Assembly: GCA_022113835.1 (NCBI GenBank) | Contig: JAILWY010000012.1 | Coordinates: 5,332,001-5,396,000 of the forward strand | Direction: 5' to 3' | Origin: Atopsyche davidsoni | Taxonomy: Eukaryota; Arthropoda; Insecta; Trichoptera; Hydrobiosidae | Length of the DNA stretch: 64,000 nt | Shown: positions 8,620 through 39,910 of the stretch, in pieces | How positions within the stretch are numbered: position 1 is the stretch's first letter | Layout: every line of letters begins with the position of its first letter | The notes under the pieces: generated by a model | The model's input: the letters and a program-made list of their open reading frames with translations, nothing else | The model's database searches: none | Told to the model about the DNA's origin: nothing | Translations under genes and position numbers: made by a program

Positions 8620-8707
8620 GTGATTCGTTGGTATAATTGGTAATGCACCGGCCACGTAAGCTTGGGGATGTGGGTTCAAATCCCACACAAATCACGATGA
8701 TATTTTC
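8620..8707 (+). mobile_element. tRNA-Thr-like SINE head
   Basis: The segment folds as a degenerate tRNA. GTGATT at 8620 pairs with AATCAC at 8690-8695. A box-A-like TGGTATAATTGG lies at 8629-8640 and a box B GGTTCAAATCC at 8673-8683. The inferred anticodon loop CACGTAA gives CGT (Thr), but the usual T33 is A and the stem has mismatches, so a working tRNA is unlikely. The bases after the tRNA part (ATCACGATGATATTTT) match the start of the tail of the fold-back SINEs at 27.2 and 56.2 kb, which places it in the same family with the tail truncated or diverged. Confidence 0.65.
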
Positions 8708-33704: not shown

Positions 33705-33708
33705 GTAT
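33705..33708. repeat. Left 4-bp target duplication of the LTR element (GTAT)
   Basis: Matches 39907-39910. Four-base duplications are usual for one group of Ty3/gypsy elements; four bases alone are weak, but the position exactly outside TG...CA ends supports it. Confidence 0.7.
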
Positions 33709-34034
33709 TGTAACGTACCGGGGTTCACACTTAAACACTTATTTATGTCAACACAAGTTATATTTATTTATCTACGTACAGAGTATTTATTTACATTAAA
33801 CATTTATATTAACATTGTCTTTTAGTACTGTCAGAGCGAGACCCGCCTTTGACACTAATCTCAAAATGGCTTCCCCTCGCATCTCCAACATTCGAGGGCT
33901 CGCGCGAGGCGCATTCCTCGATTCTCCAAAACCTCGTATTGGCGCTCTAGTCGACGCTCGCTCGATCATTCCAGTCCTTTGCTTTATAGCGTTCTGGATG
34001 GTTCGATTTTCAAACTTACTGCTAGACCGTAACA
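33709..34034 (-). repeat. 3' LTR, 326 bp
   Basis: It differs from the other LTR only at 33799 (A here, T at 39671). It encodes the last 79 or so residues of Pol and its TAA stop (33796-33798). The base difference falls in the codon just before the stop and is silent (both Val). AATAAA poly(A) signals on the minus strand lie at 33786-33791 and 33763-33768, just after the stop. Confidence 0.97.
33763..33791 (-). terminator. Poly(A) signals in the 3' LTR
   Basis: Minus-strand AATAAA hexamers at 33786-33791 and 33763-33768 lie 5-30 bases past the Pol stop codon. They are placed to end the genomic RNA inside the 3' LTR. Confidence 0.5.
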
Positions 34035-37000
34035 CTACCCCCTCCTCAGTCGTTGTTCCGTCCCGGAACACTCGCTGTTTATTCACGTGTACGTAGCGGC
34101 AGTCTGGTCCACGTTGACATCCAGTGGTTGCATCAAAATAGCATCGCACTGTCCTTCGCTCTATTCCACTGACCCAGGGATGATAGCAGCATACTTGGAT
34201 CTCAATCCCCGTATGCTGGAATAGTTCCTCGAGCATGCTTCGCACTATACGCCAGTCCGGATAGCTCAACTTGGGCAGGCTGAACTTTTGGATCTCCTGC
34301 TCCAATAGCATCCTTCGCAGGCTTACCAGGCTATCCCATATTACTTGATAATCAGCCCCCTGATGGGCTGTTTCTCTTGTAATTAGGAAGAACAACTCCC
34401 GGCCTTCGCGTTGTACCTGCAGAGTGTCCCCCAAAGACGACTCTTGAGCTTCTCTCTTCATGTCTCCGTACTTATGTCTTGTGACTCTTAAGACTCCCTT
34501 TGACATGTCCGAGTCTTTACTTATTTCTTGAACCAGAGCATAATCTTTCGGTGTCAAAAATAAATCTTGTCTCACTTCGGTGGTTACACCATATCTGGCC
34601 TTTCTTCCGGCACCGTGTCGGATCATGAATTCGCCAAATGTTAATTCTTCTGCCGGCACTCGACATACTCGCACTGTCTGATCAGTTGCCTCATCGTTAC
34701 TGCCCAAAAAAGGGCTCAGGCGGTTAAAATGAACAACCCTAGGTTTTCCAATCGGTCTCTTCCGGATGCGATATATTACATCATTTATCTTTTTCATTAC
34801 TTCGTACGGACCGTCCCACGCCCGTTGGAGTTTTGGAGAGAGCCCCCTCCGTCTCTGAGGATTGAATAGCCAAACCAGATCCCCGGCTTGGTGTCCACCT
34901 CCTTCAGCTCCCAGGTCGTATCGATCCTTCATCCGATCACTAGCATCTTGGATGTTGACCCGTACTCTGTCATGAGTTTCGTTTAGCTGACGGCGTAAGT
35001 CTGAGACGTAGCCTTCTCCCACCAAGCTTTCTCCAGGTTTCCCTCCGAACTTCAAATCGCACGGGAGGCGCAGTTCTCGCCCAAAAATTACACTAGCTGG
35101 TGTTTGTCTAGTCGCCTCGTGGATGGAAGAACGATACGCCAATAAGAACAGGTGCAGGTGTCTGTCCCAGTCTCTTTGATGATCAGCGACAACTTTGGAT
35201 AAATATTTACCCATAGTCCGGTTCATTCTCTCGACCATTCCGTCAGATTGCGGATGTAGTGCTGTTGTCCTCGTCTTTCGAATGCCCAGAGTTTCACACA
35301 CTCCCTGAAAGACAGACGATTCAAAATTTCTCCCTTGGTCAGAATGCAACTCCATCGGAATGCCAAATCGGCAGATCCATTCCTTCACAATAACGTCAGC
35401 GACAGTAACGGCTTCTTGGTTCGGGATGGCGTATGCTTCCACCCATTTACTGAAGTAGTCCATCGTCACCAAGATGTATTTGTTTCCGGCTTCTGATGTA
35501 GGAAACGGGCCCGCTACATCGATCGCTATTCTCTCAAATGGGCTCCCAACGTTGTATTGACGCATAGGTGCTCTTCGTTTGCGTTGTGGTCCATTGGCCG
35601 TTGCACAACACACGCACCTTCGGCACCAATCGCGGACGTCTTCCTTGCAATTGACCCAGTAGAACCGTTCGCGTATCTTTTCTAGGGTTTTTCTGGTCCC
35701 AAGATGGCCTCCGGATGCTCCATCGTGGATTAGTTTCAGCACTTCGGTGACCCTCTTCCTTGGAATGACCAGCTGCAGCCTCTTTTGCGTCCCATCGTCA
35801 TTTTCTAGGATGCGCTTCAACAATTTACCTTCTAATGTCAAGGAGTTCCACTGTGCCCAATATGCTTTCACGCTTGGAGATAAAGAAGCTATTTCTTCCC
35901 AGATTGGCCGATGTCCAGCTCTCTTCCATTTGAGCACGTATTTTAACTCTGGATCATTTTCTTGGTCTATCAGCACATCAGTCTCGGACCACTCGTCATC
36001 ACGTACAGTCACTCTTTCGACTGTAGCTGATTTTTCCTCTGCCCAACAGCAATGAGTACAGTTCTCAGCGCAGGGCCTTCTTGATAGAGCATCGGCATTA
36101 CGATGAATGGTTCCTGCTCGATGTTCAATGTCAAAATCGAACTCTTGAAGTCTTTCGATCCATCTTGCTACTTGATTTTCGGGGTTTTTGAATCGTAGCA
36201 ACCACGTCAGTGCAGCGTGGTCAGTTCGGAGAAGGAATTTCCTTCCGTAGAGATATTTGTGAAAATGTTCGACGGACTTCACGACTGCGAGCAGTTCTCT
36301 TCGCGTCACACAATAATTGCGCTCTGGTTTTGATAACACCTTGCTAAAGTACGCAATCACTTTTTCATGGCCGTCTTGCATTTGCGATAAGACCCCTCCG
36401 ATACCCACGTTGCTCGCATCAGTATCCAAGATAAATTTGTCGTCCGGTTTCGGATAACTCAGGATGGGGGCGCTGCTTAGTCTCTGTCGTAGCTCGTCAA
36501 ATGCTGTTTGGCAGTCTTGGCTCCACACAAATTCATTGCGTTCCTCGGTTAATCTGATTAGAGGTTTAGCGATGTCTGCAAACCCGGGAACAAATCGTCG
36601 ATAGTACGTGCATAATCCTAAGAAACTTCTTATTTCATTTTTGTCCTTAGGTTCTGGCCATTCTTTGACGGTTATTATTTTCTCGGGATCGACAGTAACT
36701 CCGTGAGCAGATATCACATGACCGAGATATTTCACTGTCCTCTGAAATAAGTTGCACTTAGATGGATTAAGTTTCAGGCTAGCTTCTTGGAGCCGTCGAA
36801 ACACTTGTTCTAAGTTTTTTAAATGATCGTCAAAAGTTCTTCCAAGCACTATAATATCGTCAAGATAAACGAGACAAGTTTCCCAAGACAATCCTCGAAG
36901 TACATTCTCCATTAGGCGCTCAAATGTAGCAGGCGCGTTGCATAGACCAAAGGGCATTACGGTGAACTGCCAAAGGCCATTTCCAGTCGAGAAAGCTGTC

Positions 37001-38346
37001 TTTTCTTTATCTTTAGGATCAAGTTCGACCTGCCAGTAGCCACTCTTAAGGTCTAGGGTTGAGAACATTTTGCATCCAACTAATGAGTCCAGAGTGTCGT
37101 CTATTCGCGGCAGAGGGTAACTGTCCTTCTTCGTTACGTTGTTAAGCTGCCGATAGTCCACGCAAAAACGGGTTGTTCCGTCTTTCTTCTTAACTAGTAC
37201 GACAGGTGAGTTCCACGGACTATTTGATCGTTCAATAATTTTTCCTTGGTTCATTTCTTGAATGATCCGCTCAGCCTCTTCTCTTTTTGCCAGCGGTAAC
37301 CTTCTCGGTGCTTGTCGAATCGGTCTTGCTTCGCCCGTATCTATTCGATGTCGCACAATGTTAGTCCGGCCGCGTAATTCTTTCGAGCCTTCGAAAACAT
37401 CTTGATACCGACGGATTAACTCTACAATATATTGTTTCTGTTTTGCTGTCAGTTCTTGACAGGAATCGTCCAATAGTCGCTGGAGATGTTTGGGCAGTTT
37501 CGTGTTTACTCCCGACGGGGTGTCTTTCAACTGTCGGACTATTGTGGACACTGCAGAATAATTTGCGAGTGGGCTACCTTTCTTCAGATCCACAGGAAAG
37601 TCATTGATATTAATCAAACGTACGGGTATCTCCTGTGTCGTACGTATCAGCGATTTAGCGACCAGGACTCCAGGGGCTTGCATCGTATTTCCAGGCTCGA
37701 GCATTAGTATTAGTCCTTCCGGAAGCTTGGCATTTAAGCAGGCTTGCACAATCATTTCGCTACGTTTTGGCACCACCGTGTTCACTGCTAGTATAACTTG
37801 TCCGGTTCCGTTCTCATTCGCCTCAAGAACAAGTTCTTCGCCATCAATTTTGACAACTCCTTCTTTCAAGTCAAGCTTAAATCCTAACTTTGTCATAAGA
37901 TCCATGCCAAGAATGACTTCCTCTTCTATTTCAGCCACTAACGCAATTTGTTCGGCAGTGACTGCGCCAAATTGAAAAGTGACGACCATCTCCCCGTGAA
38001 CGCGAGCCGCTTCGCCTGTCGCAGTACGAAGTCTCCATCTGGAGGGGAACAAACGCTCTTTAGACATGACAATATCTGGCCGTAGGATTGTCATTGTTGC
38101 TCCGGTGTCCAATAGTAGTTTCCGGTTTCTTCCATTGACCAATCCATTTACAAATATGCTATCCGTGCGTCCCTTTAGTGTTGCGACTCTTGCAGAACGG
38201 CGCGGGAGGCTAGTAGTGCGGGTCGAAGGTTGCCCCTTTCCATCAACCCATTCTAGTTTTCCGAAGATTCTTGATACCTTCTTCCATCTTGAGGTTTTCT
38301 GGGACAGCGAATCCGCAAATGACCAATCTGGCCGCAATTCCAACAT
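33796..38346 (-). CDS. Pol polyprotein: protease, RT, RNase H, integrase, macrodomain-like region, CCCH finger
   Basis: 1516 residues from the first ATG; in vivo it is probably made as a Gag-Pol fusion by a -1 shift from gag. Protease: active-site DTGA at 80-83. RT: LDLKSGYW around D432 and YLDD at 494-497. RNase H: D643, E684, D709, D752. Integrase: zinc motif H874/H881/C908/C911; D943, D1003, E1039 (35 residues between the last two, as in D,D35E). GPY/F module about 1170-1213. Residues about 1255-1386 closely resemble the OARD1/TARG1 macrodomain class, and C1402, C1410, C1416, H1420 form a CX7CX5CX3H finger. The last 79 residues are encoded in the 3' LTR. All core catalytic residues are present and there is no internal stop. 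The protein should cut Gag-Pol, copy the RNA to DNA and insert it. The tail's role is unknown. Confidence 0.96.
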   Translation of the reverse strand: MLELRPDWSFADSLSQKTSRWKKVSRIFGKLEWVDGKGQPSTRTTSLPRRSARVATLKGRTDSIFVNGLVNGRNRKLLLDTGATMTILRPDIVMSKERLFPSRWRLRTATGEAARVHGEMVVTFQFGAVTAEQIALVAEIEEEVILGMDLMTKLGFKLDLKEGVVKIDGEELVLEANENGTGQVILAVNTVVPKRSEMIVQACLNAKLPEGLILMLEPGNTMQAPGVLVAKSLIRTTQEIPVRLININDFPVDLKKGSPLANYSAVSTIVRQLKDTPSGVNTKLPKHLQRLLDDSCQELTAKQKQYIVELIRRYQDVFEGSKELRGRTNIVRHRIDTGEARPIRQAPRRLPLAKREEAERIIQEMNQGKIIERSNSPWNSPVVLVKKKDGTTRFCVDYRQLNNVTKKDSYPLPRIDDTLDSLVGCKMFSTLDLKSGYWQVELDPKDKEKTAFSTGNGLWQFTVMPFGLCNAPATFERLMENVLRGLSWETCLVYLDDIIVLGRTFDDHLKNLEQVFRRLQEASLKLNPSKCNLFQRTVKYLGHVISAHGVTVDPEKIITVKEWPEPKDKNEIRSFLGLCTYYRRFVPGFADIAKPLIRLTEERNEFVWSQDCQTAFDELRQRLSSAPILSYPKPDDKFILDTDASNVGIGGVLSQMQDGHEKVIAYFSKVLSKPERNYCVTRRELLAVVKSVEHFHKYLYGRKFLLRTDHAALTWLLRFKNPENQVARWIERLQEFDFDIEHRAGTIHRNADALSRRPCAENCTHCCWAEEKSATVERVTVRDDEWSETDVLIDQENDPELKYVLKWKRAGHRPIWEEIASLSPSVKAYWAQWNSLTLEGKLLKRILENDDGTQKRLQLVIPRKRVTEVLKLIHDGASGGHLGTRKTLEKIRERFYWVNCKEDVRDWCRRCVCCATANGPQRKRRAPMRQYNVGSPFERIAIDVAGPFPTSEAGNKYILVTMDYFSKWVEAYAIPNQEAVTVADVIVKEWICRFGIPMELHSDQGRNFESSVFQGVCETLGIRKTRTTALHPQSDGMVERMNRTMGKYLSKVVADHQRDWDRHLHLFLLAYRSSIHEATRQTPASVIFGRELRLPCDLKFGGKPGESLVGEGYVSDLRRQLNETHDRVRVNIQDASDRMKDRYDLGAEGGGHQAGDLVWLFNPQRRRGLSPKLQRAWDGPYEVMKKINDVIYRIRKRPIGKPRVVHFNRLSPFLGSNDEATDQTVRVCRVPAEELTFGEFMIRHGAGRKARYGVTTEVRQDLFLTPKDYALVQEISKDSDMSKGVLRVTRHKYGDMKREAQESSLGDTLQVQREGRELFFLITRETAHQGADYQVIWDSLVSLRRMLLEQEIQKFSLPKLSYPDWRIVRSMLEELFQHTGIEIQVCCYHPWVSGIERRTVRCYFDATTGCQRGPDCRYVHVNKQRVFRDGTTTEEGVVLRSSSKFENRTIQNAIKQRTGMIERASTRAPIRGFGESRNAPRASPRMLEMRGEAILRLVSKAGLALTVLKDNVNINV
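34035..34047 (-). other. Polypurine tract
   Basis: On the minus strand GAGGAGGGGGTAG ends directly at the 3' LTR. This is the expected position of the purine primer for plus-strand DNA synthesis. It also lies inside the Pol frame. Confidence 0.85.
34087..34143 (-). other. CCCH zinc-finger segment of Pol
   Basis: Pol residues 1402-1420 have the spacing CX7CX5CX3H, the standard CCCH form found in many RNA-binding proteins (established for the family). Arg and Lys around it fit nucleic-acid binding (inferred). It lies 15-20 residues after the macrodomain-like region and just before the LTR-encoded tail. Retroviral-type Gag knuckles are CCHC and differ in spacing. Confidence 0.75.
34189..34584 (-). 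other. OARD1/TARG1-like macrodomain segment of Pol
   Basis: Pol residues about 1255-1386 follow the order of the OARD1 (TARG1) macrodomain. A strand ends in DLF (1261-1263), with Gln where cellular proteins have Gly. Then come an ISKDSDMSKGV block (1275-1285) in place of the ISEDxxMGxGI motif, a FFLITRE strand (1319-1325), a DYQVIWDSL helix start (1332-1340), a SLPKL strand (1356-1360) and a W...MLEELF helix (1365-1376), then an IEIQVCCY strand. Macrodomains of this class bind ADP-ribose and remove it from acidic residues. The phosphate loop that holds the catalytic Asp of TARG1 appears about four residues shorter here, and Arg1324 sits at the catalytic Lys position. Binding is therefore more likely than normal hydrolysis. 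The call comes from pattern recall, not an alignment run. Confidence 0.7.
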
Positions 38347-39515
38347 CGAGGTCTTTCAGGCTTCTTAAATTTGAGCGCTTCCAATACGCGCTGGATTATT
38401 TCTTCCATCGATAGGTTCGACGGGGCTTCTTCCACGCCCTCCATGGCCCGGACGCGAGGATGGCTTCTTAATGATTGTTTGACTGCCTCGAACTCAAGGG
38501 CTTGAGTCAAGGCGTCACTCAATGTCTTCGGGCGGGCTAATTTCACGGCCTGCTGTGTCTCTACTTCTCTCAGACCGTCTAAAAATTTTTCTACCGCCAG
38601 GCTCTCATAGACGTCATCGGGAACAGTTGGGTAGGCGCTTTGCACCAATCGCACGATGTCCGCCTCAAACTCTTGGAGTGATTCTGTTGGTTTCTGGTAG
38701 CGGTTCTTTAACTGGGACCGATAAATCTGTTCCATATACCGATGACCAAAGCGCATATCAAGTCGTTTGGTCAGCTCAGTGTAGTTGACCCTGTCCTCCA
38801 GCGGAATCGTTTGCAATACCCTGAGGGCATCCCCACGCAGTAAAAGACTCAATATGGATGCTTTTTTTATAGCTGACCATCCGTTGATCATGGCCGCCGT
38901 CTCGAATAGCGTCAAATACTCCTCCCATACGGTTTTTCCATCAAAAGTCGGCAGATCAGTTTTGATGCTACAAGTTGACGCTTCGTGCTTGTGGTCATGT
39001 TGGGGAGTATTTTCCAATAGTTTCACTTCAGTACTACTTTTTGTATTCATATTTCCAGAGTGACTCGCCGTTTCTTTCGCTTGCCCGGCTAACCGCTTTT
39101 CCATGTCTTGAATGACGTCCTTAATCCTTCGGTCAACCGATTCGTTTAGTTCTTCTATCTTCGCGTCAAACTTAGTGGTTTGTTTTTCAATCCTCGCGTC
39201 GATTGATTCTATTAGCTGGTACTCAATTGAATCCAATTTTGTCCTCTGATCCGTCAGCTCAGTCCCCAGTTCGTCCAGCTTTTTGGATTGTTCGTCCGTC
39301 TTTCCGGATTGTTCGTCCAGCTTTTTGGATAAATCATCAATGCTGCACGGCACTTCAAAAAGGAACTCCTCTGGGTTGTGGCCCTCTTGCACCAGGGATT
39401 CCTTCAATCTTAGCACAAGGGCTGACTTCATCCCTGTGGTTAACAAATCACGTTCTTCAAGTTCTCTCTTCAGATCTACTACTTTGAGGTCACTCATATT
39501 TACGTGCTTCGCCAT
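38253..39515 (-). CDS. Gag polyprotein with SAP motif, coiled coil, capsid and CCHC knuckle
   Basis: 420 residues. Residues 9-41 read as a SAP motif (LKVVDLKRELEERDLLTTGMK), a helix-turn-helix fold that usually binds DNA. Residues 57-142 form a heptad-rich coiled coil with several Asp-Glu-Gln-Ser-Lys-Lys-type repeats. Residues about 187-350 are the Retrotrans_gag capsid region (WEEYLTLFE near 197, then RLDMRFG and ESLQEFEADI). A CCHC knuckle CX2CX4HX4C lies at C391, C394, H399, C404 and binds RNA. The ATG is 65 bases after the 5' LTR. A second ATG at codon 7 is possible. Gag builds the virus-like particle and packages the RNA. Its 3' end overlaps pol by 94 bases. Confidence 0.95.
   Translation of the reverse strand: MAKHVNMSDLKVVDLKRELEERDLLTTGMKSALVLRLKESLVQEGHNPEEFLFEVPCSIDDLSKKLDEQSGKTDEQSKKLDELGTELTDQRTKLDSIEYQLIESIDARIEKQTTKFDAKIEELNESVDRRIKDVIQDMEKRLAGQAKETASHSGNMNTKSSTEVKLLENTPQHDHKHEASTCSIKTDLPTFDGKTVWEEYLTLFETAAMINGWSAIKKASILSLLLRGDALRVLQTIPLEDRVNYTELTKRLDMRFGHRYMEQIYRSQLKNRYQKPTESLQEFEADIVRLVQSAYPTVPDDVYESLAVEKFLDGLREVETQQAVKLARPKTLSDALTQALEFEAVKQSLRSHPRVRAMEGVEEAPSNLSMEEIIQRVLEALKFKKPERPRCWNCGQIGHLRIRCPRKPQDGRRYQESSEN
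38256..38262 (-). promoter_or_regulatory. Candidate -1 frameshift site (GGAAAAC)
   Basis: pol is in the -1 frame relative to gag. The only slippery-like heptamer I see in gag phase in the overlap is G GAA AAC directly before the gag TAG stop. AAC can slip to AAA, but GAA to GGA is a poor match, so it is not canonical. Re-initiation at the pol ATG (38346), just after the start of the overlap, is an alternative. Confidence 0.3.
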
Positions 39516-39561
39516 TTTGTTTTATACTTTTATTTATTTTAATTATTATTTATTTATCACC

Positions 39562-39579
39562 CTACACATCTGACACCAA
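39562..39579 (-). other. Primer-binding site, tRNA-Leu type
   Basis: One base after the 5' LTR the minus strand reads TGGTGTCAGATGTGTAGG. Its first ten bases fit the 3' end (CCA included) of animal tRNA-Leu(CAA), and 13 of the first 14 match if the standard tRNA sequence is assumed. tRNA-Leu priming is known in the mdg3/micropia group. Confidence 0.7.
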
Positions 39580-39580
39580 T

Positions 39581-39906
39581 TGTAACGTACCGGGGTTCAC
39601 ACTTAAACACTTATTTATGTCAACACAAGTTATATTTATTTATCTACGTACAGAGTATTTATTTACATTATACATTTATATTAACATTGTCTTTTAGTAC
39701 TGTCAGAGCGAGACCCGCCTTTGACACTAATCTCAAAATGGCTTCCCCTCGCATCTCCAACATTCGAGGGCTCGCGCGAGGCGCATTCCTCGATTCTCCA
39801 AAACCTCGTATTGGCGCTCTAGTCGACGCTCGCTCGATCATTCCAGTCCTTTGCTTTATAGCGTTCTGGATGGTTCGATTTTCAAACTTACTGCTAGACC
39901 GTAACA
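39581..39906 (-). repeat. 5' LTR, 326 bp
   Basis: Starts TGTTACG and ends CGTTACA on the minus strand. It differs from the 3' LTR by one base (39671). It holds the promoter, and its first 240 bases are the same sequence that encodes the Pol C-terminus in the 3' copy. Confidence 0.97.
39855..39860 (-). promoter_or_regulatory. Candidate TATA box of the LTR promoter
   Basis: Minus-strand TATAAA within GCTATAAAGC, about 50 bases into the LTR. This would put the RNA start about 30 bases downstream, near 39825. In the 3' LTR the same bases are Pol codons (Ala-Ile-Lys). Confidence 0.45.
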
Positions 39907-39910
39907 GTAT
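39907..39910. repeat. Right 4-bp target duplication of the LTR element (GTAT)
   Basis: Matches 33705-33708. Confidence 0.7.

Follow-up and report, generated by a model that had tools for sequence, protein, structure and literature searches.

The 64,000-nucleotide stretch of Atopsyche davidsoni DNA analysed here (the window; contig JAILWY010000012.1, positions 5,332,001 to 5,396,000) contains a Ty3/gypsy long terminal repeat (LTR) retrotransposon on its minus strand, and the C-terminal part of its Pol protein is, on the evidence of sequence comparison and predicted structure, a macrodomain of the TARG1/OARD1 class. The element is young, its 326-base LTRs showing 1 mismatch between the 5' and 3' copies, and it displays the features that define Ty3/gypsy elements: a protease-reverse transcriptase-RNase H-integrase order, a p58/GPY/F module, LTRs and a short target-site duplication. 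Pol is a single open frame (33796-38355, stop to stop) that overlaps gag in a -1 relation and is probably reached from it by a -1 frameshift. The features are as follows.

33705..33708, target-site duplication GTAT, copy 1
33709-39906, minus strand, LTR retrotransposon, Ty3/gypsy
33709..34034, minus strand, 3' LTR, coding for the final 79 Pol residues
33796..38346, minus strand, Pol open frame, 1516 amino acids from ATG
34087..34143, minus strand, CCCH zinc finger (motif C-x7-C-x5-C-x3-H) that follows the macrodomain in Pol
34192..34584, minus strand, TARG1/OARD1-class macrodomain (predicted), Pol residues 1255-1385
34264..34272, minus strand, site of a 4-residue deletion in the Gly-rich loop leading to TARG1 Asp125 (alignments)
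34375..34377, minus strand, codon for Arg where TARG1 has its catalytic Lys84 (alignments)
34711..34884, minus strand, integrase SH3-like / p58 C-terminal (GPY/F) module (PF22938, E 1.1e-11)
35257..35541, minus strand, integrase core, rve (PF00665, E 1.2e-14)
35593..35766, minus strand, integrase H2C2 zinc-binding domain (PF17921, E 1.9e-19)
36139..36525, minus strand, RNase H (PF17919/PF17917)
36712..37194, minus strand, reverse transcriptase (PF00078, two adjoining pieces)
37894..38151, minus strand, aspartic protease (PF13975, E 1.1e-8)
38253..39515, minus strand, gag, with SAP, Retrotrans_gag and CCHC knuckle (Pfam)
38301-38348, minus strand, Gag CCHC knuckle (Pfam)
39393-39497, minus strand, Gag SAP domain (Pfam, E 1.9e-7)
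39581..39906, minus strand, 5' LTR
39907..39910, target-site duplication GTAT, copy 2

A preliminary description of this DNA had proposed a TARG1-like macrodomain in a Pol that runs on for about 300 residues beyond GPY/F. The location was right, on a strand (minus) that it did not give, and the motif order it claimed (DLF, ISKDSDMSKGV, LITRE, SLPKL, MLEELF) is present. The p58 C-terminal match occupies residues 127-160 of the 464-residue Pol tail (P0001), with 27.3 bits against PF24626, under that model's cut-off of 30; behind the module we counted 304 more residues, comprising a linker, the macrodomain, the CCCH finger and 79 residues encoded inside the LTR. In phmmer the window domain matches human OARD1 at 55.5 bits (E 1.6e-13), with 30% identity across 135 columns and homology over the whole domain. 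A chance match is ruled out by 200 shuffles of the domain, which reached 5.9 bits at most (172 of the 200 gave a score). Against the macrodomain reading, the window domain by itself matches no Pfam or NCBIfam model, and its sole PHROGs match is a weak 'phosphatase' family (E 0.0025). TARG1 is the top structural match of two AlphaFold models built from different alignments, coming first again for the second model, whose alignment held retroelement rows only, and a profile built from 21 Pol tails matches OARD1 in the PDB at E 1.7e-44. A fold nearest to TARG1 together with whole-domain homology places the domain in the TARG1/ALC1-like class. The outcomes that the preliminary description had named as fatal, the lack of a profile or structural match to macrodomains or a wrong fold, did not arise, and its identification of the domain is backed by sequence, by both models and by relatives. 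The use it suggested for the domain, to counter or read ADP-ribosylation, is plausible; the CCCH finger had escaped it. The best viral match to the domain in Foldseek was Kadipiro virus VP8 (BFVD A0A8E0KJF2, 28% identity).

Protein searches made before the 464-residue tail was used as the query found no relatives. With that tail, 178 matches were obtained from 5.8 billion proteins, and the macrodomain is present in 76 of 121 rows (the best 120 of the 178 plus the window). Named sources of macrodomain rows are Aromia moschata, Molorchus minor, Exocentrus adspersus, Callosobruchus maculatus and Diabrotica virgifera; the three source organisms checked taxonomically are all chrysomeloid beetles. 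The beetle Pol proteins are mostly listed as 'C3H1-type', and among the matches listed only P0064 and P0068 bear a macrodomain-type name. The remaining 45 rows stop 1 to 88 residues past the integrase profile, those of spiders (Araneus, Trichonephila, Argiope) after 1 to 7. A tree of the integrases from 46 non-redundant rows puts all 19 macrodomain rows into one group of 25 (support 85/93, under the level starred in the tree), in which the six other rows stop 3 to 43 residues behind GPY/F and may have had the macrodomain cut off. The macrodomains of the 19 rows form a single clade (100/100). Pfam Macro was matched at E <0.01 in 12 of 21 alignment rows (best 4.7e-4), the window not being one of them. 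Scans of viral contigs with single Pol pieces gave no relatives and with an alignment query gave 7 among 32 stretches; scanning genome contigs yielded 21 relatives among 112, of which L020 was set aside for its broken frame, and scanning plasmids yielded one macro domain protein.

The finger behind the macrodomain fits the CCCH definition (C-x7/8-C-x5-C-x3-H) and scores 16.4 bits against Pfam zf-CCCH, under the 20.5 cut-off. The zf-CCCH_3 model was matched in 14 of the 21 family members picked for alignment, and a strict CCCH motif follows the macrodomain in 45 of the 55 rows that have at least 40 residues left. These sequence comparisons show that a Ty3/gypsy lineage acquired the macrodomain, which occurs together with the finger, and retained it behind the integrase as a C-terminal extension of Pol. 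The LTR-encoded end (33799-34034, 79 residues) was mostly modelled with low confidence, and no conservation was evident in it (13% mean identity, only three row pairs being comparable). In chromoviruses a chromodomain sits behind the GPY/F module; in the window Pol that slot is taken by the macrodomain, and Pfam, run on the 464-residue tail with E values up to 10, returned no chromodomain model. At the other end of the element, Gag starts with the SAP domain, which is listed in several Aromia rows too. The window also holds a tRNA-Thr gene at 8622-8695.

The window copy retains Asp20 (of the DLF motif) and Gly43, which in TARG1 we take to be contact residues, and has Ser at the place of Gly41. 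The catalytic pair of TARG1 is Lys84 and an acid at 125 (PMC7050489), printed there as Glu125 and read as Asp in the TARG1 PDB chain. Neither residue is found in the window copy, which has Arg at 84 and has lost the loop of Asp125 to the deletion, and the case for ADP-ribose removal by this copy is weakened to that extent. Across the family, both residues are kept in 14 of the 19 rows (non-redundant at 85%) and in 53 of the 58 rows lettered at both columns, many of the latter being near-copies from Aromia. Arg stands at 84 in four of the 19 (P0001, P0029, P0044 and P0056); position 125 is not Asp in these and in P0024, P0029 having Glu. Gly41 is present in human TARG1 and in seven compared bacterial or phage rows, and in none of the 19 retroelement rows.

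Searching the host genome (370.7 Mb, 80 contigs) with the window domain gave 32 matches: 22 near-identical copies (97-100% identity, 17 of them in a frame of 1519 residues), one older copy (L057; 89% identity, 1471-residue frame), six partial or decayed copies and three distant ones. L057 shares both the Arg at 84 and the deleted loop, which marks the derived form as an old one in the subfamily. Compared with that of L057, the window macrodomain shows 13 synonymous and 14 nonsynonymous changes, a ratio of nonsynonymous to synonymous rates (dN/dS) of 0.27 (Fisher p 0.0013, with back-calculated site numbers); dN/dS is 0.10 for the integrase part and 0.42 for the CCCH stretch. In the one pair compared, the macrodomain is thus under purifying selection and is constrained less than the integrase. 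Among the 19 tail macrodomains, that of the window also sits on the longest end branch (1.11), its integrase branch being 0.19.

The three distant matches (L064, L065 and L066) belong to another Ty3/gypsy group of the same genome, in which the macrodomain occupies a second slot. L064 has an open frame of 1311 with the order reverse transcriptase, RNase H, macrodomain (1441-1902 of L064), H2C2, integrase core. Its macrodomain lies above the Pfam Macro cut-off (E 7.3e-7), matches OARD1 at E 8.1e-18 and retains the catalytic pair, with Lys84 and a GCGLD motif. L065 and L066 have the same order as judged by eye, L066 with a stop within the macrodomain, and dN/dS between L064 and L065 is 0.10 at a dS of 0.96 (their integrase value was saturated and disregarded). 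When the genome was searched again with the L064 domain as query, 55 matches came up, many of them partial, and the window family was among them. Eleven span the full query, namely these three and eight at 42-43% identity, mostly in frames of 1270-1312, of which the six fetched are identical in the domain. For L071, one of the eight, Pfam gives the L064-type order with Macro under its cut-off (E 0.0035), and the first loop looks altered by eye. The second group includes L064, L065, L066 and L071-L076 on several contigs of the host genome (G000). No CCCH model was matched beside the macrodomain of L064 or L071. In another member, L077 (G000:C5:1694014-1695750), the macrodomain by eye breaks off into an integrase-end-like stretch, as if internally deleted; other contigs carry partial matches that resemble it and have open frames about 700 long.

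The host has TARG1-like exons of its own (L078 and L079, contig C18 of G000), which share 44% and 49% identity with human OARD1 and may represent a duplicated gene. In a tree that includes the 49% stretch, the 19 Pol-tail domains form one clade (stem 0.79) apart from human, host and bacterial rows; as this clade groups with neither human nor host TARG1, a recent capture from this host is unsupported. When 22 sequences of cells and phages were scored, human OARD1 came top with 68.9 bits, and no other exceeded 56.6. L064 and L065 join the tail rows at 98/99, yet on a branch of 3.28 and with an odd letter make-up, and in BLAST a Paenibacillus protein stands just above the tail rows.

We infer, with a probability of about 0.55, that members keeping the pair are ADP-ribosyl erasers that travel with Pol, and that in the window subfamily the domain is a non-hydrolytic binding or structural module. 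Carried on Pol, the macrodomain would be at hand inside particles and during integration, and the adjacent CCCH finger, which suggests a nucleic-acid target, would bring it to nucleic acid. There, a pair-keeping domain would strip ADP-ribose from the ends of element RNA or cDNA, from integrase or from insertion-site chromatin, and so would keep host PARP-type enzymes from blocking replication or integration. TARG1 itself acts on proteins ADP-ribosylated at acidic residues and on ADP-ribose at nucleic-acid ends (PMC7050489, PMC6582358), and on RNA ends it reverses the modification (PMC6582358). Loss of PARP-1 in Drosophila raised the majority of the mobile elements that were misregulated (PMC7712786). 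The window copy is most likely non-hydrolysing, since pair and loop glycines are lost while purifying selection persists.

Several observations weigh against the eraser reading. The rows were collected with the macrodomain-bearing tail itself, so 76 of 121 is no survey, and many of the beetle proteins are gene models, some fused to unrelated domains. The replacement of Gly41 may mean that the pocket is altered across the whole family, and the window copy, P0024, P0029, P0044 and P0056 miss one or both residues of the pair. SCO6735 is described as a hydrolase that lacks the pair (PMC7050489); activity can therefore be neither inferred nor denied from these two residues. In the Drosophila work, 3 of 8 significant elements fell, ten more rises (nine of gypsy type) lay outside the false-discovery limit, and the authors allow an indirect effect (PMC7712786).

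Of the alternatives, the one that survives best, a minority view that we take seriously, is that the window subfamily has a pseudo-macrodomain in which ADP-ribose binding is lost and which is only a structural or protein-binding part of Pol. The Arg at 84, the deleted Gly-rich loop and the Ser at Gly41 all fit this view, as do the long end branch of the domain beside that of its integrase and the young second-group subfamily of L071, likewise altered in its first loop; retention of Asp20 and Gly43, the dN/dS of 0.27 and the standing of TARG1 as top structural match argue the other way. Less likely, macrodomain and finger would act together on ADP-ribose at genomic RNA ends with no role in defence. 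Such a module would suit the adjoining finger and the activity of TARG1 on RNA ends (PMC6582358), but the window finger shows no significant likeness to RNA-binding fingers of known structure (E 0.65-0.93 for U2AF 23 kDa and Yth1), and in the second group no CCCH match was obtained beside the macrodomain of L064 or L071. A chromatin tether, in which the domain would read ADP-ribosylated chromatin or proteins and steer integration from a chromodomain-like slot, seems improbable: the position behind p58/GPY/F, the constraint on a subfamily that lacks the pair and the presence of readers in the ALC1-like class (PMC7050489) speak for it, but most family rows keep a pair that a pure reader would not need, and in the second group the macrodomain precedes the integrase. 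That the likeness is accidental, or that a host gene was mistakenly joined to Pol, has a negligible likelihood despite the missing Pfam match; the shuffles reject a chance match.

Extending the eraser reading, insect Ty3/gypsy Pol may hold a TARG1-class ADP-ribosyl hydrolase in two slots, through two captures or one capture and a move, as an answer to ADP-ribosylation-based control of transposons, with young, high-copy subfamilies of both slots losing pocket residues in an ongoing contest; we advance this tentatively, at a little short of even odds. Work on viral macrodomains treats them as weapons against the PARPs of the host. Should LTR retrotransposons truly carry one inside Pol, the control of transposons gains ADP-ribosylation as a candidate layer, one that is directly testable because pair-bearing and pair-less forms coexist in related elements. 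The macrodomain also makes sense of the Pol tail in many beetle proteins named 'C3H1-type'. A search of 5.39 million open papers for macrodomains and LTR retrotransposons returned fish endogenous retroviruses (PMC4977317) and otherwise LINE-1, macroH2A and histones, and one for O-acetyl-ADP-ribose deacetylase and retrotransposons only fungal work; with most subscription papers and all preprints outside the search, the novelty of a macrodomain in Ty3/gypsy Pol is provisional.

The Pol domain resembles human TARG1 (OARD1, C6orf130; ALC1-like) in fold, in homology over the whole domain, in its DLF, Gly43 and Trp129 and, in most family rows, in Lys84 and Asp125. It differs in sitting within a retrotransposon Pol, in the replacement of Gly41 (19/19) and, in the window, in lacking Lys84 and the loop with Asp125. 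Phages (LP65, LpeD, Fnu1, phage G; 24-30% identity, 11 phage records) and bacteria (26-31% in 21 loci) encode TARG1-like proteins that are homologous over most of the domain, but where annotated these are separate proteins, and all 22 phage and bacterial rows compared have the Lys and a GLD or GID motif, unlike the window domain. Macro domain proteins were reportedly described in fish epsilon-like endogenous retroviruses by Basta et al. in 2009. These, too, are LTR-type retroelements with a macro domain, but there the proteins are encoded in additional open reading frames (PMC4977317), whereas the window domain lies inside a Ty3/gypsy Pol. Alphaviruses also have a macrodomain fold within a polyprotein, but theirs is of MacroD type (PMC7050489) and the alphavirus structural matches have 9-14% identity. 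The closest parallel is the capture of dUTPase by retroviruses and bdelloid LTR elements (PMC5408684, in the text of which 'macro' does not occur): the enzyme differs, but there too a captured enzyme occupies a variable slot in Pol, including between reverse transcriptase and integrase or after integrase.
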